Shown here in pieces: positions 3,728 to 47,976 of a stretch of DNA of 64,000 bases. Position numbers and translations under genes: made by a program. The stretch covers positions 2,418,001 to 2,482,000 of the forward strand of contig NZ_CP035495.1 in NCBI RefSeq assembly GCF_004135345.1. The letters run 5' to 3'. The notes beneath the pieces are model-generated. The model was given only the letters and a program-made list of their open reading frames with translations, did no database searches and had not been told where the DNA came from. The DNA comes from Xylanimonas allomyrinae (GTDB lineage: Bacteria; Actinomycetota; Actinomycetes; Actinomycetales; Cellulomonadaceae). Within the stretch, counting starts at the first letter, position 1. Every line of letters starts with the position of its first letter.

Positions 3728-4738
3728 TCATGCCTCCAGGTCCTGCCGCAGTGGCACCCGCACCTCGCCCACCGGTCGGCCGTGGCCGAGGACGGGAACC
3801 GTCCCGAGGGTGGTCAGGGCGTGCGCGTCCGCTCCGGCGACGTCGAGCGCCCCGGCCGCGCGCAGCACCGCGGCCAGGATCACGGGTCCTGGCCGGAACG
3901 AGCCGTCGAGCACCTTGACCGCGAACGACACGCCGTCGGGCAGCGCTCCCGCGAACACCGCTTCGGCGCCGTCCTTGCACACCAGCCCCGGCACGGCCCG
4001 CATGGCCGCGGTGACCTCACGGCCGTCGCCCGCGACCATCTCGGGGCGCGCCACCATCGCGTCGGCCACCCGGCGCTCCGGCGTCCCCGCAGCGGCGAGG
4101 ACCAGCCGGCCGTAGGCGAGGGCGAGCCCGCGCAGCGACGTCGACCACAGCGGCGCGCCGCACCCGTCCACCGTGACGTGAGGCGGGCGCGGGTCGCGCG
4201 TCTCGTCCCGCGTCAGCTTCGCGACGGTGGCGGCGATCTCGGCCTGCAGGGGGTGCGCCGGGTCGAGGTAGCTCGCGGTGTCCCAGCCCGCGGCGACGCA
4301 CGTGGCGAGCATCGCGGCGTGCTTGCCCGAGCAGTCCTGGGTCAGCGATTCCGGGCCGCCGCCTGCGCGCTGCCAGTCGAGCGCCACGCGCGGGTCGAGC
4401 GGCAGCCCGGGAGTGTTCGCCAGCGCCTCGGGCCCGAGGCCCGCGGCGGCCAGCATTGCGCGCACGCCGTCCCGGTGCACCTGCTCGCCGCTGTGGCTGG
4501 CGGCCGCGAGGGCGAGCTGGCCGTCGTCGGCGGGTTCGAAGCCGCGTCGCAGCATCGCCACGGCCTGCACGGGCTTGAGCGTCGAGCGCGGGTAGATGTC
4601 GGCGTCGGGGTCGCCGACGGTGAGCAGCGGCGTGCCCGCGGGGTCGAGCACGACGAGGTGGCCCAGGTGGACGGACTCGACGAGGCCGCCGCGCACCACC
4701 TCCGCCAGGACGCCGGCGCCGCGCGCGAGGGTCACCAC
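3728..4738 (-). CDS. L-asparaginase (AnsA-like, PF06089 asparaginase II family)
   Basis: About 336 residues of the Rhizobium etli-type asparaginase family, which is unrelated to the E. coli enzymes and hydrolyses L-asparagine to aspartate and ammonia. Visible motifs are [14 protein letters not shown] near residue 50, [12 protein letters not shown] near residue 136 and [10 protein letters not shown] near residue 186. No signal peptide, so it is cytoplasmic. The GTG start at 4738 overlaps the end of the DUF2516 reading frame (GTGGTGA), which indicates translational coupling. Downstream dtd follows after 4 bp. Confidence 0.88.
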
Positions 4739-5063
4739 TGCGGGCCCTGCGGCTTCCGGGGGCCGCCCGTGCCGTAGGGCTTGATCGCCGGGCGCACGTC
4801 GTACCAGTAGATGAGCGCCGGGGCGAGCGCGATGAGGTTGAGGAACGTGCTGCTGGTGGCGTACATCGGGGAAGGCCCAGCAGCCCGATCACGGCCGCGA
4901 TGCCCAGGACGACGAGCCAGAAGCCGCGGGTGCGCTTGCCTTCGGCGGTGTAGGCGCGCGCCGGCCTGCGCGCGGCGTCGACGAGCGCGACGACCTGCAC
5001 CACGAACACGGCGACGGCGAGCACCGTCAGCACGAGCAGCTGCACCGATCCCAGGAGATTCAC
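4732..5063 (-). pseudogene. DUF2516 family membrane protein, single-base frameshift
   Basis: From the GTG at 5063 the frame reads MNLLGSVQLLVLTVLAVAVF, a first membrane segment, then VVALVDAARRPARAYTAEGK and a second segment ending GLLGLP. After that it goes out of frame. Adding one base to the C run (forward-strand GGGG at 4868-4871) restores PPMYATSSTFLNLIALAPAL and YWYDVRPAIKPYGTGGPRKP, a normal DUF2516 C-terminus ending at the TGA at 4732, which overlaps the asparaginase start. The repaired protein is about 110 residues, the normal family length. Function is unknown. The deletion is probably a homopolymer sequencing error. Confidence 0.8.
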
Positions 5064-9005: not shown

Positions 9006-9517
9006 TCAGGCAGCGGCGGTACCCGCGCGCAGGCGCCGTCCCAGCAGGTACAGCTCACATCCCAGGCACAGCCCGACGACGGCGTTGAGCGCCGCCGCCA
9101 CGAACGCGAGCGCGGCGGCCACGGGGACGGCCGCCCCGGCTCCCAGCAGCCCGAGGATCACGCCGACGCCGGTCACGACGAGTCCGACGAGCTGCGCGAA
9201 ACGCGGCGGGCGCGGGTCCTCGAGCTCTTCGGGGCGGCAAGCCGGGGCCGCACGACCGTGCGGAACACCCAGCCTTGCCAGGTGTGCTGAGCGCCACGCG
9301 CGGCGCCGACGGCGAAGCTGAGCGCGAGCACGGCCAGCAGCACGAGCGCCGCGCGGCGCGTCGGCTCCGCGACGCCCAGCAGCACGACGACGGCGAGCAG
9401 CACCGCCGTGATCCCGGCTGCGACGCGCGGGCCGCGGGGGTCGATCCCGGCCGGCCGGCCGGTGGAAGCGGGGGTGGGGGCGGGGGTGGGGGCGGGGGTG
9501 GGGGTGCTGCGAGACAT
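9006..9517 (-). pseudogene. DUF4395 membrane protein, single-base frameshift
   Basis: From the ATG at 9517 the frame gives a PTPAP-repeat N-terminus, then the DUF4395 start GIDPRGPRVAAGITAVLLAV and a second helix up to TVVRPRLAAP. Restoring one base in the C run (forward GGGG at 9231-9234) continues EELEDPRPPRFAQLVGLVVTG, more hydrophobic segments and the diagnostic C-terminal CLGCELYLLGRR, stopping at 9006. DUF4395 proteins have 4 membrane spans and a CxxC at the end, and are commonly paired with thioredoxin genes in actinobacteria, as here. Full length is expected after repair. Confidence 0.8.
9470..9503. repeat. G-rich tandem repeat inside the DUF4395 N-terminus
   Basis: The plus strand carries about six runs of five G separated by T or C (GGGGGTGGGGGC units). 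On the minus strand these encode Pro-Thr/Pro-Ala repeats. Runs of this kind can form G-quadruplexes and are prone to slippage; repeat number may vary between strains. Confidence 0.7.
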
Positions 9518-9610
9518 GAGGACTCCAGGAGGTCAGGCGGGAACGTGCCGGCGCGGCGCACGGGTGCGCCGGCGTGCGGACCGGGCGCGGGGCCGCGGGG
9601 GTCAGCGACA

Positions 9611-9666
9611 GGGGTTCACGTGCAGGGGTTCACGTGCAGTGGTTCACGTGCAGGGGTTCAACGACA
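9611..9666. repeat. Four tandem 14-bp repeats with CACGTG core
   Basis: Units GGGGTTCACGTGCA at 9611-9624 and 9625-9638 are identical. The unit at 9639-9652 differs by one base, and the unit at 9653-9666 diverges at its right end (GGGGTTCAACGACA). The last unit supplies the TGA stop of the thioredoxin gene. Each of the first three units contains the palindrome CACGTG. Confidence 0.85.
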
Positions 9667-10089
9667 GAGGGCCAGTGCCTCGCGGGCCTGGGACGGGCTC
9701 ATGGCGCCGCTCGCGCGGGCGAGCTCGACGCCGTCGGGGTCGAGCACGAGCACGGTGGGGGTCGTCAGCACGCGCAGCCGGGCGACGAGGTCGAGGTGCG
9801 CGTCGACGTCCAGCTCCTGGTGGGCGACGCCGTCCTCGGCCGACGCGAGCGCTCGCAGGACACGGGCGGTGGCGCGGCACGGGGCGCAGATCTCGGCGGA
9901 GAGCTGGAGGAACGTGGCGCGCGTGCCGAGGATCACGCCGCGCGCGGCCCACTCCGTGGCCGGGCTGGTGTCCCCTGCCGACGGCGCGGCGGCGCGCGCC
10001 ACACGCACCCGCCCCTGGCGGGCACGCCATACGGCGCCGATCACTGCCGTCACGGCCAGGAGCGCGACGAGCGCGAACGTCTGGGGCAC
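9658..10089 (-). CDS. Membrane-anchored thioredoxin-like protein (CAPC active site)
   Basis: 143 residues from a GTG at 10089. An N-terminal membrane anchor (PQTFALVALLAVTAVIGAVW) is followed by a thioredoxin fold with the redox motif CAPC near residue 68 and the cis-Pro loop TTPTVLVLDPDG near residue 110. It probably faces the cell exterior as a thiol-disulfide protein. The DUF4395 gene lies downstream on the same strand, the usual partner in actinobacteria; both have CxxC motifs, so an electron-relay pair is plausible but unproven. Confidence 0.82.
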   Translation of the reverse strand: MPQTFALVALLAVTAVIGAVWRARQGRVRVARAAAPSAGDTSPATEWAARGVILGTRATFLQLSAEICAPCRATARVLRALASAEDGVAHQELDVDAHLDLVARLRVLTTPTVLVLDPDGVELARASGAMSPSQAREALALCR

Positions 10090-10116
10090 GCCCGTTCCCT
10101 TCTGCCGACCTGCACG

Positions 10117-10146
10117 ATGACAATAGTTGAAAGCGGAATCTATAGA
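10117..10146 (+). promoter_or_regulatory. Candidate sigma-70 promoter for the YceI gene
   Basis: An AT-rich island in GC-rich DNA holds ATGACA (10117-10122) and TATAGA (10141-10146) separated by 18 bp. It lies in the 185-bp divergent region between the thioredoxin gene and yceI-like gene. Assigned by eye only. Confidence 0.4.
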
Positions 10147-10274
10147 GTGATCCCTGCTCGGCGATCAATGATCACCCCGCCGTCCGCGTGCACACCACCA
10201 TGATCCCGAATGCTGGACGGCAGGCGTCTCGGATCGCGTCGCGCGCCGCCACACCTGCCCCCGGAGGATCTGCG

Positions 10275-10949
10275 ATGACCGACCTGCCCCTGCGCACCTG
10301 GAACGATCTCGTCATCCCGGCGCCGGGTCCCTACCACCTGGACACCGAGCACATGCGGCTGGGCTTCAACGCGACCCACATGATGGTCAGCACCGTGCGC
10401 GGCGAGTTCACTCGCGCATCCGCACAGGTCTGGGTCGACGAGGACCCGCTCGAGTCCTGGGCGAGCGCGACGATCCAGTCGGCCTCGATCGACACCGACA
10501 ACGCCGAGCGCGACGGCCACCTGCGCTCGGGCGACTTCCTCGACGCCGACACGCACCCGACCATCGGCTTCCGCTCGACCGGTCTGACCTGGCAGACGCA
10601 GCCCGACCCGATCTTCTCCTGGGCGCGCCTCAAAGGGCACGCCCAGGGGCGCACCGCCGCCCCCGACGCCGCGACGCGCCCGCCGTCGCGGTTCCAGCTC
10701 CACGGCGACCTCACGATCCGGTCCACGACGCTTCCCGTCACGCTCGACGTCGAGTACGGCGGCGCCCGTCGCGACCTGTACGGGCGCGACATCTGGGGTT
10801 TCTCGGCCACCACCGCGATCGACCGCGAGGCCTACGGGCTGCTGTGGAACGTGGCGCTCGAGGCGGGTGGCGTCCTGGTCGCCAAGACGGTGCGGCTCGA
10901 ACTGGCGGGCGAGTTCATCCGCTCCGACGGCGTCACCGCGCGTCCGTAG
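10275..10949 (+). CDS. YceI family lipocalin-like protein
   Basis: 224 residues. The ATG at 10275 is set by a GGAGG site 6 bases upstream. The sequence follows the YceI pattern: PGPYHLDTEHMRLGFNATHM near residue 18 (the SxHSxVxFxVRHMM-like opening), ATIQSASIDTDNAERDGHLR near residue 67 and FLDADTHPTIGFRSTG near residue 92. YceI proteins form a barrel that binds isoprenoid-type ligands. There is no signal peptide here, unlike the E. coli protein. It is a single gene facing away from the thioredoxin gene. Confidence 0.88.
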   Translation: MTDLPLRTWNDLVIPAPGPYHLDTEHMRLGFNATHMMVSTVRGEFTRASAQVWVDEDPLESWASATIQSASIDTDNAERDGHLRSGDFLDADTHPTIGFRSTGLTWQTQPDPIFSWARLKGHAQGRTAAPDAATRPPSRFQLHGDLTIRSTTLPVTLDVEYGGARRDLYGRDIWGFSATTAIDREAYGLLWNVALEAGGVLVAKTVRLELAGEFIRSDGVTARP

Positions 10950-10967
10950 CGGCACAGGGCCCGGACC

Positions 10968-11711
10968 TCACCCCAGCAGCACGCGCCCGACGGCGAACAC
11001 CAGGATCCCGCCGACCGCCACCGGCACCACCGCCGCCGCGATCCCGGCCCAGCGCCCCGTCACCCCCGGCAGACGCTCGAACAAGATCCGCACCGCCCCG
11101 ACGCCCAGCCCGCCGACGAGCCCCGCGACCAGACCCGTCACCGGCTCCACGTCTGGAACGAGTGCACCGGCCCCCGCGCCCGCCACGGCGGCGACGGCGA
11201 CGGCGGACAACGCGCCGAGCCAGCCGCGTGCCGCGGGGAGCGCCGAGACCGCGGCAGCGGCAGCGACCGCCGTCGCCGCCGTGACGACCAGCGCGGTACC
11301 GCCCGTGGAGCGGGTCGTGGCGATCCACCCTGCCGCGGCGACGGCGACGAACGCGCCCGTCACGGTGCCGCTGAGCGACTCGACCAGGCGCGCACGACCG
11401 TCGCGCCGCAGCATCTCGGACAAGAAGGCCAGCACGAGCGACATCGCGACGACGAGCGGCAGGTGCCGCAGCACCGGCTCGCCCTGCGTGCGCCAGGCGA
11501 CAACCGCGGCACCGAGCCCTGCGGCGAGGACGACGATCCGCAGTCCGCCCGGCGCGGGCGCGGCCACGACGGCCGGCCATCCGATCACGAGGAGCACGAC
11601 CAGCGCCACGGCGACGCCGACGAGAGGCAGCACGCCGAAGGACGCGGCGGCGGCGACGACGGCGGCGAGGACGGCGGTCGTCACGGCACGGGTGCTCAGG
11701 GTCACGGTCAC
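10968..11711 (-). CDS. Ala/Val-rich multi-span membrane protein of unknown function
   Basis: About 247 residues with roughly eight hydrophobic stretches (for example TTAVLAAVVAAAASFGVLPL, LVGVAVALVVLLVIGWPAVV and GIAAAVVPVAVGGILVFAVG). Start candidates are GTG at 11711 and GTG at 11705; the first is used. No family motif stands out; similar predicted permease-like proteins sit upstream of glnR in related actinobacteria. It is divergent from glnR (180 bp between) and convergent with the YceI gene. Confidence 0.65.
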   Translation of the reverse strand: MTVTLSTRAVTTAVLAAVVAAAASFGVLPLVGVAVALVVLLVIGWPAVVAAPAPGGLRIVVLAAGLGAAVVAWRTQGEPVLRHLPLVVAMSLVLAFLSEMLRRDGRARLVESLSGTVTGAFVAVAAAGWIATTRSTGGTALVVTAATAVAAAAAVSALPAARGWLGALSAVAVAAVAGAGAGALVPDVEPVTGLVAGLVGGLGVGAVRILFERLPGVTGRWAGIAAAVVPVAVGGILVFAVGRVLLG

Positions 11712-11890
11712 GAGTATCCCGGACGGTCTCGCCGTGTGTGCTCTTCGGCTTCCCACGACACATGCCCGACACGTGGTCGATGCATACTGCGCCATCAGGC
11801 GGGTGTCGGGCCGGTGTGCGCAGGTGCGCCGGGAGGTAGTTTGTCGGCAGGCCGACACCCGATGGAAACGAAGGACCAGGAGGGACGCGC

Positions 11891-12706
11891 ATGGCAGAAC
11901 TGTTGATCCTCACGCCCGCGACGGGCGGGTCGGTCGACGTGCTGCCCGCGCTCGGTCTTCTCTCGCACCGGGTCCGCGTGCTGCCCATGGAGCCGTCGGC
12001 GCTCGTGGACGCGCCCGACTCCGACGTCGTGCTGCTCGACGCCCGCCGCGACCTCGTGGCCGCGCGCACGACGTGCCGCCTGCTGCACGCCACCGGGCTC
12101 GACCTGCCGCTCGTGCTCGTGCTCACCGAGGGCGGGCTCACCGTCGTCACGCACGAGTGGGGCGTGGACGACCTGCTGCTCGAGCACGCCTCCCCCGCCG
12201 AGGTCGAGGCACGGCTGCGCCTGGTGATCGAGCGCTCGGCGCGCGGCTCGGTCGACGACGGGCCGCAGGAGATCGCCGCCGGGGACCTGGCCATCGACGC
12301 GGGCGGCTACACGGCCCGGCTGCGTGGGCGGCCCATCGACCTCACGTACAAGGAGTTCGAGCTCCTCAAGTACCTCGTCCAGCACCCAGGCCGGGTGTTC
12401 ACCCGCGCCCAGCTCCTGCAAGAGGTCTGGGGCTACGACTACTACGGCGGCACCCGCACGGTCGACGTCCACGTGCGGCGTCTGCGCGCCAAGCTCGGGC
12501 CCGAGCACGAGCAGCTCATCGGCACCGTGCGCAACGTGGGCTACCGCTTCGACCCGCCGCCCAAGGAACGCTCCCCCCGCGACGAGCCCGCGGACGCGCC
12601 CCCGTCGGCCTCGGCCACCGCCCCGTCGCCGCGCCCGGACGGCGCGATCCCGAGCCCGGCCACCCCCGACGGCGACTCGCAGCCCACGACACCCCGGAGC
12701 CGATGA
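11891..12706 (+). CDS. glnR: GlnR-type winged-helix response regulator (nitrogen regulator)
   Basis: 271 residues. The receiver-like N-terminus [20 protein letters not shown] and [16 protein letters not shown] is characteristic of actinobacterial GlnR, an orphan OmpR-type regulator of nitrogen assimilation that works as a dimer without classical phosphorylation. The OmpR/PhoB winged helix spans about residues 125-217 with [20 protein letters not shown] and [19 protein letters not shown] Pro/Ser-rich tail of about 50 residues follows. The ATG at 11891 has an AGGAGG-like site just upstream. It overlaps the downstream hydrolase gene. Confidence 0.88.
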
Positions 12707-13641
12707 TGCCCGACGCCAGAGAGGTCGCCGACTACTCGTCCGCGCTCGTCGACGGGCCGTGGCGGCACGAGTTCGTGACCGCCAACGGGGCCCGGTTCCA
12801 CGTCGCGCTCGCCGGGCCGGGGCGCACCGCGTCGCCGTCGGCGCCGCTGGTCGTGCTGCTGCACGGGTTCGGCCAGTTCTGGTGGACCTGGCGAAACCAG
12901 ATCACCGCGCTCGCCGACGCCGGGTATTCCGTCGCCGCGATGGACCTGCGGGGCACCGCGGCGTCCGACAAGCCGCCGTCGGGCTACGACACGCCCACCC
13001 GCACGCGTGACGTCGCCGGCGTGGTGCGCTCGCTCGGGCACGACCGCGCGATCGTCGTCGGGCACGGGACGGGCGGCACGGTCGCCTGGTCGATGGCGGC
13101 GCTCCAGCCGGCCATGACGGCCGGGGTCGCCGCGCTGTCGAGCCCGCACCCGGCGCACCTGCACGTGCCGCTGGTGCAGCAGCTCACGCCGCGCGCGCTG
13201 CGGCTGCTCGCGCTCGCACAGATCCCGACGCTGCCCGAGCGGCGCCTGCGCGACGCGGACGTGCTGGAGCGGTTCTTCGCTCTGGGCGCGGGCCGGCCGC
13301 TCGACCCCGCCGCCGTCGAGCTCTACCGCACCGTGCTGCGCATCCCGTTCGCGGCCCACACGGCGGCCGAGGCCTTGCGCTGGTCCGTGCGCTCGGTGCC
13401 GCGGCTCGACGGGAGGCGCTTCACGGCCGCGGTGCGCCGCGTGCTCACGCTCCCGACGCTCCAGGTGCACGGCGAGCGCGACGGCATCGTGCGCCGCGAC
13501 CGGGCCGACGCCGACGCCGCGGCCTTCGCACGCGACTACCGCTTCGAGGTGCTCGAGGGCGCGGGCCACTTCCTCCAGGAAGAGGCGCCGGACGCCGTCA
13601 CCGAACTTCTCCTCGCCTGGCTCCCCGCTCCCACGCGCTAG
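12703..13641 (+). CDS. Alpha/beta hydrolase-fold protein with atypical nucleophile elbow
   Basis: 312 residues (ATGATG at 12703, overlapping the glnR stop). The fold is clear: [19 protein letters not shown] (oxyanion HG motif), [15 protein letters not shown], and late [14 protein letters not shown] with [14 protein letters not shown] for the acid and His. The elbow, however, reads [12 protein letters not shown], so the position normally occupied by Ser or Asp in GxSxG is Gly. Related actinobacterial genes in this context often have GHG, so the family may lack classical hydrolase chemistry. Coupling to glnR is positional; no nitrogen role is shown. Confidence 0.85.
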
Positions 13642-13674
13642 GACTCCCGAGCGTCGCCGGGCCGGGTGCGCGAC

Positions 13675-14403
13675 CTACCGGGGAGGCCCCTGCTTGACGA
13701 GCTTCGCCGCCGCGTCCGGGGTCGTCTCACCGATGCCGTAGGACGGGCACCACGACGCGACCGGGCACGCACCGCACGCCGGGCGCTTGGCGTGGCAGAT
13801 GCGGCGCCCGTGCCAGACGACGTGATGGCTGAGCATCGTCCAGTCCTTCTTCGGGATGAGCTCGGCGACCTCGAACTCGACCTTGACGGGGTCCTCCGCG
13901 CTCGTCCACCCGAACCGGCGGGCGAGCCGCCCGAAGTGCGTGTCCACGGTGATGCCGGGGATGCCGAACGCGTTGCCGAGCACGACGTTGGCCGTCTTGC
14001 GCCCGACGCCGGGCAACGTGACCAGGTCGTCGAGCCGGGGCGGCACCTCACCGCCGAACCGCTCGACGAGCGCCTGGCCGAGCCCGATCACCGCGCGCGT
14101 CTTGGCGCGGAAGAAGCCGAGCGGCTGGAGGATCTCCTCGAGCTGCGCAGGGTCGGCCCCCGCGTAGGCCGCGGCCGTCGGGTAGCGCGCGAACAGCGTC
14201 GGAGTCGTCGCGTTCACGCGAACGTCCGTCGTCTGCGCGCTCAGCACGGTCGCCACCAGCAGCTCCAGCGGGGACGTGAAGTCGAGCTCGGCACGAGCGT
14301 CGGGGTAGGTCGCGGCGAGCTCGCGGTCGATCCGGCGGGCGCGGCGTACGAGCGCCAGCCGGGACTCCCCGGTCGGGGTCGGGTGCGGCTGAGTCGTGGG
14401 CAC
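13675..14403 (-). CDS. nth: Endonuclease III (DNA glycosylase/AP lyase)
   Basis: About 242 residues from the GTG at 14403; a longer in-frame extension to 14517 would run into the crp promoter region and is not favoured. The helix-hairpin-helix [14 protein letters not shown] holds the catalytic Lys, [14 protein letters not shown] holds the catalytic Asp, and the Fe-S loop is [17 protein letters not shown] (C-x6-C-x2-C-x5-C). The enzyme removes oxidised pyrimidines in base-excision repair. It is divergent from crp, the usual actinobacterial neighbourhood. Confidence 0.92.
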
Positions 14404-39701: not shown

Positions 39702-39778
39702 GCCTCGGTAGCTCAGTTGGTCAGAGCAGCGGACTTTTAATCCGCGGGTCCAGGGTTCGAGCCCCTGCCGGGGCACCA
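39702..39778 (+). tRNA. tRNA-Lys (TTT), carrying the attL core
   Basis: Acceptor GCCTCGG/CCGGGGC, anticodon stem GCGGA/TCCGC with loop CTTTTAA and anticodon TTT, T arm GGGTTCGAGCCCC. The 3' ACCA is encoded. Bases from the anticodon loop to CAC are duplicated 8.2 kb downstream, so the 3' half of this gene was supplied by the integrated element and remains functional. Confidence 0.95.
39739..39776. other. attL core (38 bp within tRNA-Lys)
   Basis: Identical over 38 bases to 47939-47976. It runs from the anticodon loop through the T arm to the first C of CCA, the usual target of tyrosine integrases. Confidence 0.93.
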
Positions 39779-39780
39779 GT

Positions 39781-39809
39781 AGGCCCGGAATCTCCGCGAT
39801 TCCGGGCCT
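39781..39809 (+). terminator. Hairpin terminator after tRNA-Lys
   Basis: AGGCCCGGAATC and GATTCCGGGCCT pair over a 5-base loop, followed by TTAGTCTTT. It is inside the element and stops tRNA transcription from entering it. Confidence 0.75.
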
Positions 39810-39819
39810 TAGTCTTTCC

Positions 39820-39854
39820 GCTCCACGTCCACGACCCAGCGGAAACCCAACGCT
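39820..39854. repeat. Candidate integrase arm-site repeats, left end
   Basis: A 19-bp segment at 39820-39838 matches 47788-47806 with one mismatch. Two 9-mers, CCCAGCGGA (39835-39843) and CCCAACGCT (39846-39854), also recur at the right end but in reverse order (47814-47822 and 47803-47811). They lie between the att core and int. Confidence 0.6.
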
Positions 39855-39859
39855 TTCCG

Positions 39860-40999
39860 TCAGGCACCGAACGCTTCCAGCAGCCTGGAGTGGTCCGTAG
39901 CAGCCTCGGGACGGGCCACGTAGTGCTTCGCCGTGACGGCGGTGTTCGAGTGCGTGAGCTGCTCCCCGGCGGCGGCCAGACCAGCCTTGCGCGCCACCTC
40001 CGTGCCCACGGTCTTCCTGAACGTCTTGGGCGTGACCCACGACCACTGTGGGTTGCGCGCCCGGAACGCCCGCCACTGCTTCTCGACAGTGGAGACCTCC
40101 CGGAGTCCGTCAGCGGCCGAGGGGAACACCAGCCCCAGCGGCCCGGCAGGCACCGTGACGAGGTGCTTCTCGAGCACCTCGACGCACCACACGGGCACCC
40201 ACAATGCAGTGGTCTTCTTCCCCTTGGTGGTGTCCTGCCGGAACAGCCCTTCCTTCGGGTCGCGCACCACGGTGCCGGTCAGGTGCACGACGCCGGCCAC
40301 GAGGTCGACCTCCGCCCAGCGCAGCGCCAGCGCTTCACCGATCCGGCACCCGGTGGCGAGCATCACGTCGACCAGCTCGGGCAGGTGCACGGAGACGGCC
40401 GAGGCGTCCTCGCGTAGGCATGTTCGCAGTTCGACGACCTCACGCACCGAGAGTGCTCGCACCTCCGTGGACTCCGCCGCCGCGACCGTCTCGACCTCGC
40501 GCATCGGGTTCACGTCGAGCGCTCCCTCACGGACGGCGACCGAGAACATCCCTTGCAGGCAGGTACGGGCCAGGCGCGCGTTCCCCTGGCCGCCGTCGGC
40601 CGCGTAACGCTTCACCCAGGCGTCCAGGCGGGCCGTCGTGCACTCCCGCAGCAGCAGCCCGCCCAACCCGGGCACGATCGCCTTCTCGGTCACCCAGCGG
40701 TAGCGGTACCTCGTGTTCACCGCGAGGCCGCTGCCGTCCACCTTGGTGCGCAGCCAGAAGTCAGCCAGCTTCTCCACGCGCGTGGCCGAGGTGATGGTGT
40801 CCCCGGCCGCCTTCGCCCGGTCCTTCAATGCCTTCACGAGCGTGCGCTCCGCCGCCGCGCCGGACTTCCCCCACGCCTCGACCTGTCGCGTGCGGCCGTC
40901 GATGTCACGGAACCTGACCCTCGCGACGTGGCGGCCAGCCTCGATCTCCGTGCGCTTGATCCGGCCCCAGGTGCCGACCTCAAGCGGGGGTCTAGGCAT
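39860..40999 (-). CDS. int: Tyrosine recombinase/integrase
   Basis: 379 residues; ATG at 40999 (a TTG one codon upstream is less likely), overlapping the XRE stop by 8 bp. An N-terminal AP2-like arm-binding region (RFRDIDGRTRQVEAWGKSG) and SAM-like core-binding domain precede the catalytic domain. Visible catalytic residues are the Arg in ATGCRIGEALALRW, the Arg in PKTFRKTVGTEVARKAG (with Lys at the usual first His), the His of LTHSNTAVTAKHY and the Tyr in KHYVARP. It integrates the element at tRNA-Lys. Confidence 0.92.
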   Translation of the reverse strand: MPRPPLEVGTWGRIKRTEIEAGRHVARVRFRDIDGRTRQVEAWGKSGAAAERTLVKALKDRAKAAGDTITSATRVEKLADFWLRTKVDGSGLAVNTRYRYRWVTEKAIVPGLGGLLLRECTTARLDAWVKRYAADGGQGNARLARTCLQGMFSVAVREGALDVNPMREVETVAAAESTEVRALSVREVVELRTCLREDASAVSVHLPELVDVMLATGCRIGEALALRWAEVDLVAGVVHLTGTVVRDPKEGLFRQDTTKGKKTTALWVPVWCVEVLEKHLVTVPAGPLGLVFPSAADGLREVSTVEKQWRAFRARNPQWSWVTPKTFRKTVGTEVARKAGLAAAGEQLTHSNTAVTAKHYVARPEAATDHSRLLEAFGA

Positions 41000-41606
41000 C
41001 AACGTCCCCTGCCGGGACTACTCCGCGCGCGCGCATCTTCTCTCGGTGCTCGCGGAGGGCATCGCGGGCCGCGGCGACACGGGCCCGAAGCCGATCGACG
41101 TCATCCTGGGTGGCCGCGGGACCGGAGGACGGAAGCCCAGCCGCTGCGCGCTCGACGGTGTCGACGGCCTGGGCGCGCTGCGCCATCCAGCCGACCACGT
41201 CGCGTGCGAGCCGTCCTTCCTCCCGTACGAGGTCGAGGTCGTCTGTGTTGCTCGGTAGCTCCTCGGTCAGGCCGTTCAGGCCGACGAACCATTCAAGGGC
41301 ATCGAAAGGGAGTTGTTCGATCGTCGGCAGAACCTCGATGGCCGTCGCTCCCTCACGGATCGGGTAGAGCAGGCGCACGGGCGGCACGCCGAGGGCGGCC
41401 GCGAGGACCGCCACTTCCTGCACCGTGACGTTTGGGCGTTGCCCGTTCTCCATGTTCGCGATCGTGCTGCGAGGGATGGGAAACCCCAGCACCGCACACC
41501 TGTCTGCGAGCTTCTGCACCGACCCGAAACCCGCTGGCTCGCGGAGCATCCGAACCTGCGCACCGACTGTCGCGGTCCACTTCGGACCCCAGCTCTCCTG
41601 ACTCAT
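40992..41606 (-). CDS. XRE-family helix-turn-helix repressor
   Basis: 204 residues from ATG at 41606. The helix-turn-helix is VQKLADRCAVLGFPIPRSTI followed by ANMENGQRPNVTVQEVAVLA. The rest is a Glu/Arg-rich helical region (VDRLRARVAAARDALREHRE) likely for dimerisation. Position between int and a divergent excisionase-like gene is that of an immunity or control repressor. A 9-bp palindrome in the intergenic region is a candidate operator. Its stop overlaps the int start, so the repressor and integrase are cotranscribed. Confidence 0.85.
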   Translation of the reverse strand: MSQESWGPKWTATVGAQVRMLREPAGFGSVQKLADRCAVLGFPIPRSTIANMENGQRPNVTVQEVAVLAAALGVPPVRLLYPIREGATAIEVLPTIEQLPFDALEWFVGLNGLTEELPSNTDDLDLVREEGRLARDVVGWMAQRAQAVDTVERAAAGLPSSGPAATQDDVDRLRARVAAARDALREHREKMRARGVVPAGDVDA

Positions 41607-41628
41607 GCAGGTCAATCTAGCGTGTCAG

Positions 41629-41692
41629 TTGCCCCGAGGTCATCGTTGTGGGTAGTGTGACTTCCACAAGTCAGTGCGAGCCACGCACTGAC
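41629..41692 (+). promoter_or_regulatory. Rightward promoter and palindromic operator of the element
   Basis: TTGCCC (41629-41634) and TAGTGT (41653-41658) are 18 bp apart, aimed at the excisionase-like gene. Just after the predicted start is the perfect palindrome GTCAGTGCG-N5-CGCACTGAC (41670-41692), with partial matches (TGTCAGT at 41623, TGACACG at 41694) nearby. This is a likely binding site for the XRE repressor. Confidence 0.55.
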
Positions 41693-41716
41693 CTGACACG
41701 ATCAATGGAGGCAACC

Positions 41717-41916
41717 GTGGCGGAGTCGACGCTCCCGGCCCTACTGACACCGGCCGACCTGGTGCGACTTGGTGTCTTCCCGAGCGTGAACACGCTCTAC
41801 AAGCGGCGCACCGAGGGGAAGCCCACCCCCGAGCAACGCGGATCGGCAAGCACCTGCGCTTCACCGAGCAGGCCGTCGCTGACTTCATCGCCGAGCAGAC
41901 CGAACCGGCGGCCTGA
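41717..41916 (+). pseudogene. Excisionase-like helix-turn-helix protein, single-base frameshift
   Basis: GTG at 41717 follows GGAGG by 5 bases. The frame reads MAESTLPALLTPADLVRLGV and SVNTLYKRRTEGKPTP, then is lost. Adding one base to the C run at 41826-41830 continues RATRIGKHLRFTEQAVADFI and AEQTEPAA, stopping at 41916. The repaired protein is 66 residues, a typical MerR/Xis-type DNA-binding domain found in actinobacterial integrative elements. It would direct excision together with int. Homopolymer error is the likely cause. Confidence 0.75.
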
Positions 41917-41994
41917 CCCCAGACACAAGCGCACCCCGCGCCGATCTGCGGTCGGACGGGGTGCACGGACCCAACTGAGTAGGAGTTGAGAGCC

Positions 41995-42420
41995 TTGTCC
42001 CAGGATAGCAAGCACCACCCACACGACCCGATCGCCCGCGAGCTGCGCGACCTGCTCGACTACGAGGCCGCCGTCGAGGACGCGCTCAAGGTCGCCAACT
42101 GGCGCCCGGAGCCGATCGAGCGCCCGACGCTCACGAGCGCCGAGGTCTACGGCATCATCCGTGGCCGCCTGGTGGCGCACCTGATCGTCAAGACGCCCGA
42201 CGGACACGTGACCACGCGGCCGTACCGGAACCTCGGTGCCGCCCAGCGGGCCGAGGACCGCGCCCACCACCGCGGCTGCGCGGCGACCATCGTCATGGTG
42301 CGCCAGGACGTCGCCCCGCTCGTCGGCGGCGGCGTCTCCCACGGTGGCCGGCACGAGGTCTACCTCGACGAGCACGGCCAGTACCGCTCGAACCTGCGGG
42401 CCGAGGGCGGTGCGGCATGA
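41995..42420 (+). CDS. Element protein of unknown function
   Basis: About 141 residues. TTG at 41995 is favoured by AGGAG 9 bases upstream; a TTG at 41986 is possible. The sequence is mixed helix/strand (DPIARELRDLLDYEAAVEDA, SAEVYGIIRGRLVAHLIVKT, HRGCAATIVMVRQDVAPLVG) without signal peptide or membrane segment. I do not recognise it. It is the first of several genes coupled by 4-bp overlaps (its ATGA overlaps the next start). Confidence 0.65.
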   Translation: MSQDSKHHPHDPIARELRDLLDYEAAVEDALKVANWRPEPIERPTLTSAEVYGIIRGRLVAHLIVKTPDGHVTTRPYRNLGAAQRAEDRAHHRGCAATIVMVRQDVAPLVGGGVSHGGRHEVYLDEHGQYRSNLRAEGGAA

Positions 42421-42944
42421 GCGCGCTGACCTTCGCCGTGGGCGACCGCGTCGTCTCGACGTCGCCCTACAGCGTCGGCCGGATCGGCACGGTGCGCGGC
42501 ATTGAGGTCCACCCTGCCCGGTTCGATGACGACGGCGCGCTGTCCCTGCCGAAGCGCACGGTCGTCAGCGTCACGATGGACAGCGGCGACCACCTGGCGT
42601 TCGTCGCCGACGGTGACCAGGCCTTGCAGCTCATCGCGCTGGACCCGCTTCCCGCGCCGCTGTGCCCGCCGTGGTGCGACCGCACGCACGGGGGGTTCGA
42701 CGCCACGACGTCGCACGGCGACATCGCCGTGGAGCACGCGGCGCGGCGCGGCGACGCGACGGTTGGCGCGATGGAGTTCCTCGAACCGAACGGGGCGCGC
42801 GAGATGACCACGCTCGCGTTCGACGGCCTGAACTCGTCGGACGACTTCGTGGCATCTACCCCGGCAGAACTCGCCGCCGACCTGCGCGGGTACATCGCTG
42901 ACCTGACTGCCCTCGTGAACGTGCTCGACGGCGGTGCGTCGTGA
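42417..42944 (+). CDS. DUF6907-like element protein with CPPWC motif
   Basis: 175 residues. The N-terminal third has a KOW/SH3-like look (VGDRVVSTSPYSVGRIGTVR). A central CPPWCDRTHGGFD followed by HGDIAVEHAARRGDAT resembles the Cys-Pro-x-Trp-Cys/His cluster of DUF6907 proteins found in actinobacterial phages and integrative elements. The rest predicts helix (ELAADLRGYIADLTALVNVL). Function is unknown; metal binding through Cys/His is likely. It overlaps both neighbours by 4 bp. Confidence 0.65.
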   Translation: MSALTFAVGDRVVSTSPYSVGRIGTVRGIEVHPARFDDDGALSLPKRTVVSVTMDSGDHLAFVADGDQALQLIALDPLPAPLCPPWCDRTHGGFDATTSHGDIAVEHAARRGDATVGAMEFLEPNGAREMTTLAFDGLNSSDDFVASTPAELAADLRGYIADLTALVNVLDGGAS

Positions 42945-43087
42945 TCCTCGACGGCGACCGCGTGCAGCTCGACGCCGATGGGCGTCAGGGCGTTGTCCTG
43001 TGGCGGTACGTGACCTTGATCGTCCGTCTCGACGACGGCGCCACGGTCACGGTCTCCCAGACCGACGTGACGGAAGCCCCGTGCTGA
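42941..43087 (+). CDS. Small element protein (48 residues)
   Basis: GTG at 42941 overlaps the previous stop (GTGA). The frame reads MILDGDRVQLDADGRQGVVL, then WRYVTLIVRLDDGATVTVSQ, a compact all-beta protein resembling a KOW/SH3-like domain also suggested at the start of the previous gene. It ends at 43087, overlapping the prim-pol start by 7 bp. Coupling on both sides supports it being real. Function unknown. Confidence 0.6.
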   Translation: MILDGDRVQLDADGRQGVVLWRYVTLIVRLDDGATVTVSQTDVTEAPC

Positions 43088-43830
43088 ACTCCGCTCTCGA
43101 CCTGGCAGCCCAGGGCTGGGCCGTGCTCCCGTGCCGCGAGGCCGGGAGCACGGCCAAGGCCCCGTACCTACGCCACGGGTTCCACGAGGCGTCCCGCGAC
43201 CCTGGCGTGATCCGGGCGTGGTGGGAGCGCTGGCCGCACGCGATGATCGGCGCCCCGGTGCCCGAGACGCTGCTCGTGCTCGACGTCGACCCGCGCAACG
43301 GCGGGTCGCGCACCGAGCTGGAGGACGTGCTCGGCCCGCTGCCCCACACGCTCACGGTCACCTCGGGCCGTGGCGACGGCGGGCAGCACCTGTACTTCCT
43401 GCGCCCGGTCGGGCAGGTGGTCTCTGCCCGCCTGCCCGCCGGGATCGACCTCAAGGTGTCCGGGTACTGCATCGTGCCGCCGTCCCTGCACCCGGCCACC
43501 GGGCGCCCGTACGTGTGGAACGACGCCCTGCCCGTGGCGCTGCCGGCGCGCGCGCTGGCCGCCCTACGCCCGGCGCCCCGGCCTCGACCACGGCCGTCAC
43601 GGCCGGGGTCGGCGGACCGCTTCGCCGGGCTGGTGCGGGCGGTCGGGTCGGCCAGTGTCGGCGGGCGTAACGCAGCACTGTTCTGGGCCGCGTGCCGCGC
43701 GGTCGACGAGGACGCCCCGGAACAGGTCTTCGACGACCTCGCCGCGGCGGCCCTGTCGGCCGGGCTGACCGAGCGCGAGGCCCACCGCACGATCGACTCC
43801 GCCCGGCGGAGGAAGGAGCTGGCATCTTGA
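43081..43830 (+). CDS. Bifunctional DNA primase/polymerase (prim-pol domain)
   Basis: 249 residues from GTG at 43081. The N-terminus LDLAAQGWAVLPCREAGSTA, the catalytic acidic pair in LLVLDVDPRNGG and the region TVTSGRGDGGQHLYFLRPVG match AEP-type prim-pols of mobile elements (PF09250). The C-terminal part (VGGRNAALFWAACRAVDEDA) is a helical PriCT-like region. It probably primes and replicates the excised element together with the DUF3631 ATPase that follows with a 4-bp overlap. Confidence 0.88.
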   Translation: MLNSALDLAAQGWAVLPCREAGSTAKAPYLRHGFHEASRDPGVIRAWWERWPHAMIGAPVPETLLVLDVDPRNGGSRTELEDVLGPLPHTLTVTSGRGDGGQHLYFLRPVGQVVSARLPAGIDLKVSGYCIVPPSLHPATGRPYVWNDALPVALPARALAALRPAPRPRPRPSRPGSADRFAGLVRAVGSASVGGRNAALFWAACRAVDEDAPEQVFDDLAAAALSAGLTEREAHRTIDSARRRKELAS

Positions 43831-45022
43831 GCCAGAGCAAGCGCCCGAGCGTGCCCGGGTTCGCGACCCTCACCCCGGCCCGGGTTCCCGCGGTCCCCGC
43901 ACCCGTGAGGCTCGACGGCGACGCCCTGCTTGAGCGCGTGTTCGACGTCATCGCCCGGTACACCGTGCAGCCGTCCGCGCACGCTTACGTCGCGCTCGCG
44001 CTGTACGCGGCGTACACCCACGCCGCCGGCGTCTTCGACTACGCGCCGCGCCTGCTGCTGACCAGCGCCGAGAAACGCTCGGGCAAGACCCGCACGATGG
44101 AGGTCGTCGGGAACCTGTGCCACGCCCCGCTGTTCGCCGCCAACGCCACGGTCGCCGCCCTGTTCCGGTCCCTGGACACCCCGCGCACCGTCCTGTTCGA
44201 CGAGGCCGACACGATCTTCGGCACCAAGATCAAGGCCGAGCAGAACGAAGACCTGCGCGGGCTGATCAACGCCGGGTTCCAGCGCGGCACCCCCGTCCTG
44301 CGCACCGTCGGCCCGAACCACACCCCACCGAGTTCCACACCTTCGCCCCCGTGGTCATGGCCGCGATCGGACGCCTGCCCGACACGATCACCGACCGCGC
44401 CGTGAACATCCGCCTGCGCCGCCGCAAGCCGTCCGAGACCGTGCACCCGTTCCGCCAGTCCCGAGACATGCCCGACCTGCACGCGCTGCGCGACGACCTG
44501 GCCGCATGGGTCGGCGAGCACGCCGACAAGCTGCGCGACGCGCACCCCGACACCCCGCTCGAGGACCGCGCCGCCGACCTGTGGGAACCCCTGCTCGCCG
44601 TCGCCGACCTCGCGGGCGGAGGCTGGCCCACCCTGGCACGCCAAGCCGCCGTCGCGCTGTCCCACGAGGCCGCCAAGGCCGACTCCGACCACTCCGACGG
44701 ACACGAGCTGCTGGTCGACTGCCGCGACCTGTTCCACGCCCTGCTGCGAGCAGACTTCGTGCCCACCGAGACGCTGCTCGCCGCGCTCAAGGCGATCCCC
44801 GACTCCCGCTGGGCCGAGGACGGGCTCACCGGCCGACGCCTCGCCGCGATGCTCAAGCCCTACGCGATCGAACCTGTCCGCGACCCGTCCGGCACCAAGC
44901 GCGGATACAAGCGCGTGCGCTTCGACGACGCCTTCGACCGCTACCTCTCCGACCCCGTCGCCCCCACCGCACCCGACCTTCCGTCAGAACCGTCAGACGT
45001 GTCAGAACCCCAGCAACCCTAG
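43827..45022 (+). pseudogene. DUF3631 ATPase/helicase-like protein, single-base frameshift
   Basis: TTG at 43827 (TTGA overlap, GGAAGGAG upstream) opens a frame with a Walker A-like LLTSAEKRSGKTRTMEVV and Walker B RTVLFDEADTIFG. It is lost after TVGPNHTP. Adding one base to the C run at 44323-44326 continues TEFHTFAPVVMAAIGRLPDT, RAVNIRLRRRKPSE and a helical DUF3631 C-terminus ending at 45022 (about 398 residues). The pair prim-pol/DUF3631 is typical of actinobacterial satellites. A homopolymer error is the likely cause. Confidence 0.82.
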
Positions 45023-45176
45023 GGAAAACGGCCTGACGCTTCCCTGACGCTTCCGACACGACCCGTCAAACCGTCAGCGAACCGTCAGACCTCAAACCGT
45101 TGAAAACACAGCACTTCTGACGCATCTGACGCTTCTGACACAACCCACGACGCAACACCGAAACGGAGACCCCGAG
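45023..45176. repeat. Iterated TGACGC/GTCAG sequences in the element
   Basis: At least eight copies of TGACG(C/A) or CCGTCAG occur in about 150 bp (for example CTGACGCTTCC, CCGTCAAACCGTCAGCGAAC, TGACGCATCTGACGCTTCTG). Iterons next to replication genes are typical replication-initiator or origin sites; no function can be shown from sequence alone. Confidence 0.55.
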
Positions 45177-45536
45177 ATGACCACCGAGAACCTGCCCGAA
45201 CAACTGCTCGTGACCGACACCGCCGGACTCCCGATCGCGTTCGTCGACGTCGACACCGTCCAGAGCCAGGCCATCCGGCTCGCCTACGACATGGCCGAGG
45301 CATGCCACGACCCCGACGCCCTCGACGACGTCGCCGCCCGGCACCTGACCGAGGCCGGGACCGACGCCTTCGGGTACGTCGCCGCCGCCGCGCTGCGCAT
45401 GCTCGCCCGCCACGTCCTCGACCCCGTCCTCGACGTGACCGACGCCCTGCACGACCACGGCCGCGGACCCCTCCAACACGACCTGCGCGCCGGGCTCGCC
45501 GACGCCGCCCGCAACGCCCGGCAGGATCTCTCGTGA
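45177..45536 (+). CDS. Element protein of unknown function
   Basis: 119 residues, acidic. ATG at 45177 with GGAGA upstream. The sequence has a beta-strand start (LLVTDTAGLPIAFVDVDTVQ) and a helical C-terminal two-thirds (AIRLAYDMAEACHDPDALDD, LRMLARHVLDPVLDVTDALH). No signal peptide or membrane segment. I do not recognise it. The 154 bp before it contain repeated GTCAG/CTGAC sequences (TGACGCTTCTGACAC-type), possibly further repressor or replication sites. Overlaps the next gene by 4 bp. Confidence 0.6.
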   Translation: MTTENLPEQLLVTDTAGLPIAFVDVDTVQSQAIRLAYDMAEACHDPDALDDVAARHLTEAGTDAFGYVAAAALRMLARHVLDPVLDVTDALHDHGRGPLQHDLRAGLADAARNARQDLS

Positions 45537-45745
45537 GCCGCGACGGCCTGCTCGACGACGCTCTTGCGCTGGTGCGAGCAGCCGGGTCTGACAGGGAGGG
45601 GTTCGCCGCCCTGGTGAACGGGACCGACTGCGTCGAGCACCACGGGCTGATCGTCCGGCTGTGCCAGATGGTGCGTATCTCCGCGCGCGACGATCTGGAG
45701 TACCTGGCCGAGTACGTCGAAGCGATGCAGGAGCGCGGCCTGTGA
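45533..45745 (+). CDS. Small helical element protein
   Basis: 70 residues from GTG at 45533 (GTGA overlap): MSRDGLLDDALALVRAAGSD, then HHGLIVRLCQMVRISARDDL. Entirely helical and acidic by eye. Coupled on both sides by 4-bp overlaps, which supports expression. Family unknown. Confidence 0.55.
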   Translation: MSRDGLLDDALALVRAAGSDREGFAALVNGTDCVEHHGLIVRLCQMVRISARDDLEYLAEYVEAMQERGL

Positions 45746-45930
45746 ACACCTGGGGTTGGTGGCGGCTGCGAACCCAACCGGACGACACCGGAGAGCTCAA
45801 CGACCCGGACGAGACGCGCACGGAGCGCCTGACGACTCGCCGGGACATTACCGGAGAGACCGAAGCCGTTTGGGCGACGCCGGCCGCTGCGGGTCAGTGG
45901 GACGCCCGCACGTGGAGAGAGCGCCCGTGA
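45742..45930 (+). CDS. Small Trp-rich element protein
   Basis: 62 residues from GTG at 45742, overlapping the previous stop by 4 bp. MNTWGWWRLRTQPDDTGELN and WATPAAAGQWDARTWRERP give six Trp in 62 residues, unusual. No membrane segment or signal. Family unknown; the overlap with the preceding gene is the main support. Confidence 0.5.
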   Translation: MNTWGWWRLRTQPDDTGELNDPDETRTERLTTRRDITGETEAVWATPAAAGQWDARTWRERP

Positions 45931-46244
45931 CAGGCGTCTTGTCGGTCTTGTCCGGTAGAATGCAGGCAGCGGTGAGCGACAAGTTCCCGGCCAAGAACGA
46001 GGAGCCCGACGGGCCAAGTTCGAGGAGCCGGATCGAGGATCGCGCAACGACAGGAGCCGGGTCCGCCTGGTCCCGAATCGCAGGAACGAACGGCCAGCGG
46101 TCATACCGTGCGCCACCAACGGTGTTGGTGCACTGGGTCACCCCGTCCGTCGCTACGTCCGCGACAACCCTCACCCGCAGGCACGCGGCGACGCGCCCCC
46201 TTCCGGCGCCACGCCAGCGCGTGCCATTCGCAAGGAGAACCACC
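45931..46244. other. 314-bp region before the capsid gene, no confident gene
   Basis: A TAGAAT -10-like hexamer at 45956-45961 lies at the left side, without a good -35. The capsid reading frame is open back through this stretch (including KFPAKNEEPDG), so an N-terminal extension cannot be ruled out, but the ribosome site at 46233 favours GTG 46245. No RNA structure was recognised. Confidence 0.4.
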
Positions 46245-47423
46245 GTGAAGATCAACACCAAGGCCGGACGAGACGCCGCGCTGAAGACAGCACAACGGAT
46301 CGTCGACGGCGCCAAGGCCGCGAACCGCGACCTGACAGAGACCGAGACCGCCACGATCGAGCAGACCGTCGCGGACGTGAAGGCGTTCGACGAGCACGAG
46401 GTCAGTGCCGAGCAGCAGGAGCGATACCGGAAGGGAGCAGAGCTGCTGGCGTACTTCGCCAACGACGACCGCCCACCGGGCGAGAAGTCCGGCGCGCACC
46501 TGTCGCTCAAGCGCCTCGCAGACGACCTGACGGCAGGCATGGCGGGCTACTCCGGCAGGGTCAGTCCGGGGATCAAAGGCCTGGTGCCCGCCGGAGAGAC
46601 CGTCATCCCGATCCCGCTGGTGAACACGACGCCCATCCCCGGGGCGGCAAGCCTGGAGACCCCGCCCCGCCTGGTCGACGTCCTGCCCGTCGAGGTGCGG
46701 CAGGCGCCGGTCTACTCGGTCCTGAAGCAGACCGTCGTGCCGAGTGCCGGCGCTGCGAGCGTGGTCGCTCCCGGCGACGTGAAGCCGACCAAGAAGCTCG
46801 GGGTCGAGCGCGTCGACTCCCGGTTGCGCGTGCTCGCCGTGCTCTCTGAACCTCAGGACAAGTACCTCCTGGAGGACGCCCAGAACCTGCGCACCTGGGT
46901 TGGTTCCGAACTCGCCGAGGAGATCCAGTCAGCCCTTGAGGCTGAGGTGCTGACCGGCGACGGCACCGGCGAACACTTCACCGGGCTGGCGAACACCTCG
47001 GGCGTGCAGACCCAGGCGTTCGTGCGCGATCCTCTCGTGACGGTGCAGTACGGCCTGTCGAAGCTCGCGAACCTCGGTATCGCACCCTCGTTCGTCGCGC
47101 TGTCCGCTGCGGACTGGCTCGCCATCCAGACCACCCGCAACGCCTCGGGCACGTTCGACGTCGGCGGCCCCATCGACAGCACGAACCAGACCGCGTGGGG
47201 CACCCGCGTCGTCGTCGTCCCTGGCCTGGCCGAGGGCGTTGGGTACGTCGTGGGAGCCGAGTCCTTGACGCTGTCCACCGACAACCATGGGGTGCGGGCC
47301 GAGTGGGGAAACCCTGGCGACACCTTCACGCGGAACCAGGTCGTCGCCCGCGTCGAGGGACGGTTCAACCTCGACGTCATGCGACCGCACGGCATCGTCA
47401 AACTCTCGCTCGCCGAGAGCTGA
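46245..47423 (+). CDS. HK97-fold phage major capsid protein
   Basis: 392 residues from GTG at 46245 (AAGGAG 7 bases upstream). The N-terminal 100 residues are a helical, charged scaffold-like delta domain (RDAALKTAQRIVDGAKAANR, ETETATIEQTVADVKAFDEH). The HK97 core follows: VIPIPLVNTTPIPGAASLET, LSEPQDKYLLEDAQNLRTWV, ELAEEIQSALEAEVLTGDGT, FVALSAADWLAIQTTRNASG, WGTRVVVVPGLAEGVGYVVG and FTRNQVVARVEGRFNLDVMR. A shell could form, but the protease, portal and terminase needed for a normal phage head are not in the element. Confidence 0.88.
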   Translation: MKINTKAGRDAALKTAQRIVDGAKAANRDLTETETATIEQTVADVKAFDEHEVSAEQQERYRKGAELLAYFANDDRPPGEKSGAHLSLKRLADDLTAGMAGYSGRVSPGIKGLVPAGETVIPIPLVNTTPIPGAASLETPPRLVDVLPVEVRQAPVYSVLKQTVVPSAGAASVVAPGDVKPTKKLGVERVDSRLRVLAVLSEPQDKYLLEDAQNLRTWVGSELAEEIQSALEAEVLTGDGTGEHFTGLANTSGVQTQAFVRDPLVTVQYGLSKLANLGIAPSFVALSAADWLAIQTTRNASGTFDVGGPIDSTNQTAWGTRVVVVPGLAEGVGYVVGAESLTLSTDNHGVRAEWGNPGDTFTRNQVVARVEGRFNLDVMRPHGIVKLSLAES

Positions 47424-47564
47424 CCCCGAACCGGCGTCAACCACGCCTGCCCTCACGCCTGAGCGGACCAGGCATGATCTGCCCGAGGGACCGGGAACGG
47501 ATGGTCGGACAGCACCGTCGGTAAGCGCTCCGCCGCCGACAGCCAAGACCTGACCAGCGCCACC

Positions 47565-47601
47565 AGGCCCGGCCGCAGCGAACCAACGCGCGGCCGGGCC
47601 T
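47565..47601 (+). terminator. Terminator after the capsid gene
   Basis: AGGCCCGGCCGC (47565-47576) pairs perfectly with GCGGCCGGGCCT (47590-47601) over a 13-base loop. Confidence 0.75.
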
Positions 47602-47787
47602 CGCTGTCGCCCGAGGGGGTTCGGATCGCCAGACCTCGCCTCGTCGGCCGGGTCCGCCGGCAGTGGTCCGTCTCTCTCCGAGGTTGCCGAAGGGGGGTCG
47701 CGCGCGCGAGGCAGACGACCCTAGATCGCCCCTACCAGAGCGATCTTGCTGCCCGTCCTGCGGCCCGTGTGAAGCAATGAAACGCCC

Positions 47788-47822
47788 GCTCCATGTCCAC
47801 GACCCAACGCTTACCCAGCGGA
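47788..47822. repeat. Candidate integrase arm-site repeats, right end
   Basis: 47788-47806 matches 39820-39838 with one mismatch. CCCAACGCT (47803-47811) and CCCAGCGGA (47814-47822) repeat the left-end 9-mers in swapped order. They lie 116 bp inside attR. Confidence 0.6.
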
Positions 47823-47938
47823 TTCAACGGCGAACGACGGTTGACGACGGTTTCCGACAGAGCGCCAAAACACCGCCTGACCTGGCCCGGAGCAGCGCCG
47901 GGAACCCAACGGGTATGCGACGATATCGACTGTCCCCG

Positions 47939-47976
47939 AATCCGCGGGTCCAGGGTTCGAGCCCCTGCCGGGGCAC
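47939..47976. other. attR core (38 bp, displaced tRNA-Lys 3' end)
   Basis: Identical to 39739-39776. After GGGGCAC the sequence continues TCATG rather than CA, so the original chromosomal tRNA gene lacked an encoded CCA. No 5' half is present, so this is not a second tRNA gene. Confidence 0.92.

Follow-up and report, generated by a model that had tools for sequence, protein, structure and literature searches.

SaPIbov5 encodes a single capsid homologue, Ccm, which is 24% identical to the helper protein, occupies the pentamers of the shell, shrinks the heads and cannot form shells alone (PMC8569155). Capsid-like proteins are also encoded by PmCI172 and EcCICFT073 (PMC6893505), and regions of Mycobacterium that combine an integrase with a capsid gene have already been called candidate PICIs (PMC10654092). 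Satellites with just one capsid homologue already have precedents in Ccm and in these mycobacterial regions, and the claim of the sequence-only reading that known capsid satellites carry more head genes is wrong, since SaPIbov5 has only Ccm (PMC8569155). On the side of replication, repA, the prim-pol gene repB and an iteron beside repA are sufficient in pWTY27 (PMC3583192).

The locus analysed here is an element of 8238 bp (39739-47976) integrated in the chromosome of Xylanimonas allomyrinae, within a window of 64 kb, a term used here for the whole stretch of DNA that was analysed; its G+C content is 70.2%, compared with 72.7% for the entire window. The tyrosine integrase and the XRE repressor lie on the minus strand, and all remaining genes are on the plus strand, in the order Xis-like gene, three small genes, primase-polymerase (prim-pol), DUF3631 ATPase, iteron-like array, three small genes and capsid gene (Table 1). 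The 38-bp tRNA-Lys repeats, the integrase, the XRE gene, the Xis-like gene, the prim-pol, the DUF3631 gene and the lone capsid gene, all proposed earlier from the letters alone, were confirmed. In two congeners this tRNA-Lys has other inserts, bracketed by att copies and with the right flank conserved, which makes the site a hotspot.

Table 1. Features of the Xylanimonas element and its integration site (positions in the window).
Feature	Position	Strand	Basis or remark
tRNA-Lys(TTT)	39702..39778	+	integration site, gene left intact; ARAGORN and Rfam tRNA
attL, 38-bp repeat	39739..39776	+	identical to attR; inside tRNA-Lys(TTT)
Tyrosine integrase	39860..41002	-	PF00589, E 4e-12; phrog_1
XRE/HTH repressor	40992..41615	-	divergent from the rest of the element; HTH_31, 1e-7; phage repressor PHROGs
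Xis-like small HTH protein	41704..41917	+	two-frame reading; resembles Xis-like protein of L175; no Pfam match
Three small genes, 141/175/48 aa	41995..43087	+	gene calls; no Pfam match
Primase-polymerase	43081..43830	+	PF09250 (Prim-Pol), E 8.5e-33
ATPase with DUF3631 domain	43830..45022	+	PF12307, E 1.3e-55; 1-nt frameshift near 44319-44327
Iteron-like array GTCAG/CTGAC	44985..45176		overlaps 3' end of ATPase gene
Two small genes, 119 and 70 aa	45177..45745	+	gene calls; no family match (Pfam, PHROGs, cassette HMMs)
orfF, 62 aa	45742..45930	+	conserved beside capsid gene in three nearest relatives
Leader between orfF and capsid gene	45931..46244	+	holds shared motifs
Structured RNA element, 41 nt	45989..46029	+	cmsearch 60.9 bits, E 3.6e-16
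HK97-fold major capsid protein, 392 aa	46245..47423	+	GTG start behind AAGGAG; PF05065 (Phage_capsid), E 1.5e-18
attR, 38-bp repeat	47939..47976	+	identical to attL

The gene content places the element close to the PICIs: it is small and has an integrase, a divergent regulator, a replication gene and att sites, and no gene for terminase, portal, protease, connector, tail or lysis was recognised in it by Pfam, PHROGs or HMMs of the phage head cassette, so that the absence of terminase, portal, protease, tail and lysis genes noted from the sequence alone is borne out. Its sole recognisable head gene encodes one HK97-fold homologue with a predicted delta domain, as in SaPIbov5, a cos-type SaPI and PICI, which is likewise a small integrated satellite whose capsid homologue has low identity to known phage capsids (PMC8569155); the two differ in phylum and genes, and the action of Ccm on helper pentamers has been demonstrated, whereas the Xylanimonas capsid is known from its sequence. 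The Mycobacterium candidate PICIs, including phiRv1 and phiRv2 (PMC10654092, PMC3986857), resemble it in size (about 9-12 kb), in combining an integrase, a replication gene and a capsid gene, in lying in tRNA genes in many cases and in having been called from their genes without proof of mobilisation, but some of them carry terminase, protease or scaffold genes in addition, whereas the Xylanimonas element has the capsid gene only. The cfPICIs (PMC11389934) likewise have a capsid gene of their own, but they make their capsids from a larger set of head genes, namely terminase, portal, protease, capsid and connector, and of these only the capsid gene is present here.

In its replication genes the element is closer to plasmids, since the pairing of prim-pol and DUF3631 is a replication pair of Streptomyces plasmids. 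pWTY27 also has a prim-pol replication gene beside an iteron, an integrase-type recombinase and a lone capsid gene (phc) of the same clade (PMC3583192), and the iteron-like array is placed as the iteron of pWTY27 is, next to repA (PMC3583192). This array, which the sequence-only reading had noticed before the last operon, holds nine GTCAG/CTGAC motifs in 192 nt, compared with a mean of 0.5 per 192 nt, a density equalled nowhere else in the window. Unlike pWTY27, which is a free plasmid, conjugative and equipped with tra and spd genes, the element contains neither the FtsK/TraB-type DNA translocase domain of actinomycete ICEs and conjugative plasmids nor any recognisable transfer gene (Pfam, PHROGs). 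A further element, at 9063-12171 of locus L175, shares the integrase (5e-79), an XRE-like gene and the prim-pol with the Xylanimonas element and has no capsid gene; judging from this gene content, the modules are exchangeable between elements.

The assignment of the capsid protein to the HK97 gp5 family is concordant among Pfam, PHROGs and the PDB profile search. The AlphaFold model (mean pLDDT 75.5) predicts a confident helical N-terminal hairpin, resembling a delta domain, followed by disorder at about residues 79-137 and then by the HK97 core; with this model, Foldseek retrieved the HK97, D3 and phiXacJX1 heads as top matches, and a cf-PICI capsid was also among the matches. Identity to the nearest sequenced phages is 25-28%, and in general the satellite-type capsid proteins are 25-36% identical to phage capsids. 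No close relative of the Xylanimonas capsid, or of a protease-capsid fusion protein from a related element (L161), was found in IMG/VR viral contigs, and a second PF05065 match in the host genome (L002) is weak and below the cut-off. Across six pairs, dN/dS of the capsid gene was 0.35-0.51 by a simple method and with fairly high dS, pointing to purifying selection.

The distribution of the lone-capsid design was assessed with profiles for terminase, portal, protease, connector and tail built from the 75 viral contigs that hold the nearest phage capsid relatives, and searched against six-frame translations around satellite-type capsids, so that absence refers to these profiles within 10-21 kb. 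In the IMG/VR phages with similar capsid genes the full cassette is usual, protease and portal being also present in 67-68 of the 75. Conversely, the capsid is the sole cassette match in the Xylanimonas element and in at least 12 other loci (L011, L012, L018, L113, L114, L116-L119 and L162-L164), on chromosomes and two plasmids; in L014 and L171 the capsid gene is again the only head-cassette match. A small-terminase match accompanies the capsid in L121, L165, L166 and L174, head protease and capsid are fused in one gene in the satellite-type elements L160 (9149-10918, minus strand) and L161 (8645-10363, plus strand), which represent two genomes of one family (f21), and several low-scoring capsid loci are complete prophages. 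Integrases of the relatives are of the tyrosine or serine type, and their replication genes vary (AAA_25 helicase-primase proteins, prim-pol plus AAA, or replication initiators). The search for the same gene order suggested by the sequence-only reading recovered the lone-capsid design in unrelated actinobacteria, with integrases and replication modules that differ. Seven relatives of 8-12 kb, some with insertion sequences, are bracketed by att repeats corresponding to the 3' part of a tRNA gene: Gly (L117), Pro (L119), Val (L160 and L162), Arg (L161 and L164) and Gln (L163). Counting prophages, capsid relatives were found in 8 of the 222 family genomes, in 14 of 396 at the level of the order and in 17 of 394 at that of the class.

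When 100 capsid proteins were placed in a tree, 19 whose loci have no match to a large terminase or portal split off from the sampled phage capsids with an SH-aLRT of 99; one of them, L014, had been labelled as phage, yet its locus has no other head gene. Outside this group, the capsids of L171 and L174 are placed on long branches, and the lone-capsid state may therefore have arisen more than once. Truncated capsid remnants were found in other genomes (L013, 132 aa; L120, 182 aa). Several loci have particular settings. The Rhodococcus plasmid NZ_CP096036.1 (L113, 13.6 kb) is a dimer in which two 6.8-kb integrase-capsid units are joined head to tail, with one capsid copy frameshifted, which indicates that integrase-capsid elements exist as circles; the lone phage capsid gene of L114 (10642-12102) is located on a conjugative Streptomyces plasmid, pWTY27 itself (NC_013667.2). 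In three genomes, serine-integrase elements with a lone capsid (L116, L118 and L014) are situated inside or adjacent to the same tad-like pilus gene region, the element of L011 follows a shortened comM-like gene, and in L012, at 12378-14133, a related element has its integrase next to the RNase P RNA gene.

Most lone-capsid loci have a leader of about 150-500 nt upstream of the capsid gene, and the Xylanimonas leader includes a structured RNA element made up of two copies of GGCCAAGnnCGAGGAGCC; the cmsearch model that detects it was built without this sequence and included L171. Only the tRNA reached the gathering score when the element was searched with Rfam 15, and no family matched the leader RNA. 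The tandem pattern of GGCCAAGnnCGAGGAGCC was found in one of 297 genomes of the class, namely Xylanimonas itself, and in 60 IMG/VR contigs, in almost all cases close to where the head protease gene has its 3' end, and it ends 61-122 nt upstream of the capsid start in 47 of the 50 contigs with a callable start; when all synonymous codons were allowed at the common spacing, 62 contigs matched, 55 of them among those with the exact nucleotides. The element is also present at the protease end in the cultured Arthrobacter phages JanetJ, Aoka and EvenBluerMoon, and structured RNA-like elements with strong covariation occur at actinobacteriophage protease/capsid junctions (L306-L365; L399:1597-1650; L400:1597-1650). 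In 35 sequences the two repeat copies pair with 95.6% standard pairs versus 84.2% in shuffles, with 36 double changes versus 10.2 and 14 further pair types versus 7.7, and slid controls collapse. Changes in repeat spacing preserve the hairpin, including a triloop form common to the Xylanimonas leader and the phage contig L321; the occurrence of this form in L321 led to the rejection of assembly error as the origin of the 23-nt repeat period. The RNA has the shape of tiered stems with repeated CAA/GAGGA internal loops, and weaker versions, resting on position and folding, were found in L011, L012, L116 and L018. Most of the weaker genome-wide matches fall within coding sequence, in repetitive Ala-Lys-x-Glu-Glu codons like those of apparent ribosomal protein tails, and scores below about 47 bits were accordingly trusted only with a supporting position. 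The motif ACGGCCAGCGGTCA at 46090-46103 recurs in two further capsid leaders, those of L011 and L116, and in a mismatched form in that of L018; the leader motifs R2 and R3 are common to only four or five loci, and the R2 14-mer is at chance level for high-GC DNA among the matches listed in viral contigs. Retention of the RNA element in satellites that lack the protease reading frame points to a use of the nucleic acid as such, and a control of capsid expression by the leader RNA would be a guess.

Two genes of the element are out of frame as sequenced. The DUF3631 gene consists of two frames that meet at the C-run 44319-44327; Nonomuraea and Streptomyces homologues align uninterrupted to most of the length of the joined halves (42-46% identity), indicating that the break is specific to the Xylanimonas sequence, and the Xis-like gene is likewise shifted near 41840. 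Not all genes of the tightly coupled set of six proposed earlier are consequently open in this sequence. In comparison with the congeners G213 and G220, two or three apparent indels were also seen in the chromosomal genes flanking the element, the single-base shifts lying close to 9231 and 50687, with a possible third at about 4735-5054, making assembly or sequencing error possible for the element as well; decay of this copy and assembly error are inseparable here, and either may explain the shifts in the Xis-like and DUF3631 genes.

Taken together, the element is probably a PICI-like phage satellite whose own capsid protein joins the head assembly of a helper, and its best reading is that of a conserved satellite lineage rather than of random decay. 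The basis is its anatomy, the att sites, the absence of other recognisable head genes, the recurrent architecture, the purifying selection and the HK97 fold with a delta-like domain; moreover, the lone capsid recurs with tyrosine or serine integrases and differing replication genes, similar capsid genes in phages lie mostly within a full head cassette, a circular form is seen in the Rhodococcus dimer, and Ccm alone redirects the assembly of SaPIbov5 (PMC8569155). Induction, helper dependence and incorporation into particles would follow a scheme that we infer: the integrase would insert the element in tRNA-Lys and the XRE repressor would hold it silent; a helper phage or the SOS response would relieve repression and lead to excision; the iteron-like array would serve as the start point from which prim-pol and the DUF3631 ATPase replicate the circular form; and the capsid protein, translated downstream of a leader RNA of phage type, would combine with the portal, protease and terminase of the helper into heads with satellite DNA. 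Such remodelling or hijacking of a helper head, as proposed earlier from the gene content, is plausible, and the protein may fill only some positions of the shell, as Ccm does, or the whole of it. Against the satellite reading, no resident helper is visible, with no TerL (phrog_2) or portal (PF04860) match in the host genome, near relatives were not found in IMG/VR, two genes are frameshifted as sequenced, and pWTY27, with a related capsid gene, transfers by conjugation (PMC3583192) and need not use particles. Portal genes are present in three of the five congeners searched, and the helper of this strain would come from outside or be of a different make-up.

A capsid protein that builds the entire satellite shell, so that only portal, protease, terminase and tail come from the helper, is rather unlikely, even though the protein is full-length with a predicted delta-like domain and HK97 core, the protease-capsid fusion in two relatives suggests a shell matured as a unit, and these proteins are distant from phage capsids; the head genes other than capsid that define cfPICIs are all missing, and Ccm, which has been studied most closely among such single-capsid proteins of satellites, is unable to assemble shells by itself (PMC8569155). 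The presence of a capsid gene on the conjugative pWTY27 and the plasmid-type replication pair would also fit an integrating plasmid-like element whose capsid protein acts against phages, by a dominant-negative block of assembly, and not for its own transfer; this is improbable given that no transfer gene was recognised in the Xylanimonas element and that the usual integrase-capsid element lacks such genes. A decaying prophage that retained integrase, replication and capsid genes by chance could account for the two frameshifts and for the truncated remnants elsewhere. Nevertheless, the relatives are not random remnants without a common gene set: the same selective set recurs in many genera with intact att repeats, the capsid gene is under purifying selection, and the flanking chromosomal genes also show apparent indels, all of which makes decay highly improbable. 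The recurrence in other genera and att sites agrees with the selection that the sequence-only reading had suspected.

It is tentatively possible, though somewhat doubtful, that an actinobacterial satellite lineage has reduced its virus part to a capsid gene and a cis-acting leader RNA, building or reshaping particles from these alone, with the leader as a regulatory or assembly RNA undescribed in the open-licence literature. This leader is a candidate for a new cis-acting RNA of phage head genes, for which Arthrobacter globiformis B-2979 provides an isolated phage host. Across several actinobacterial families, mobile elements can retain a single capsid gene as their sole virion gene, so that it becomes possible to test whether one protein suffices to commandeer a phage head, and the idea derived from Ccm would be extended from staphylococci to the actinobacteria, a phylum to which the unexplained mycobacterial elements also belong.
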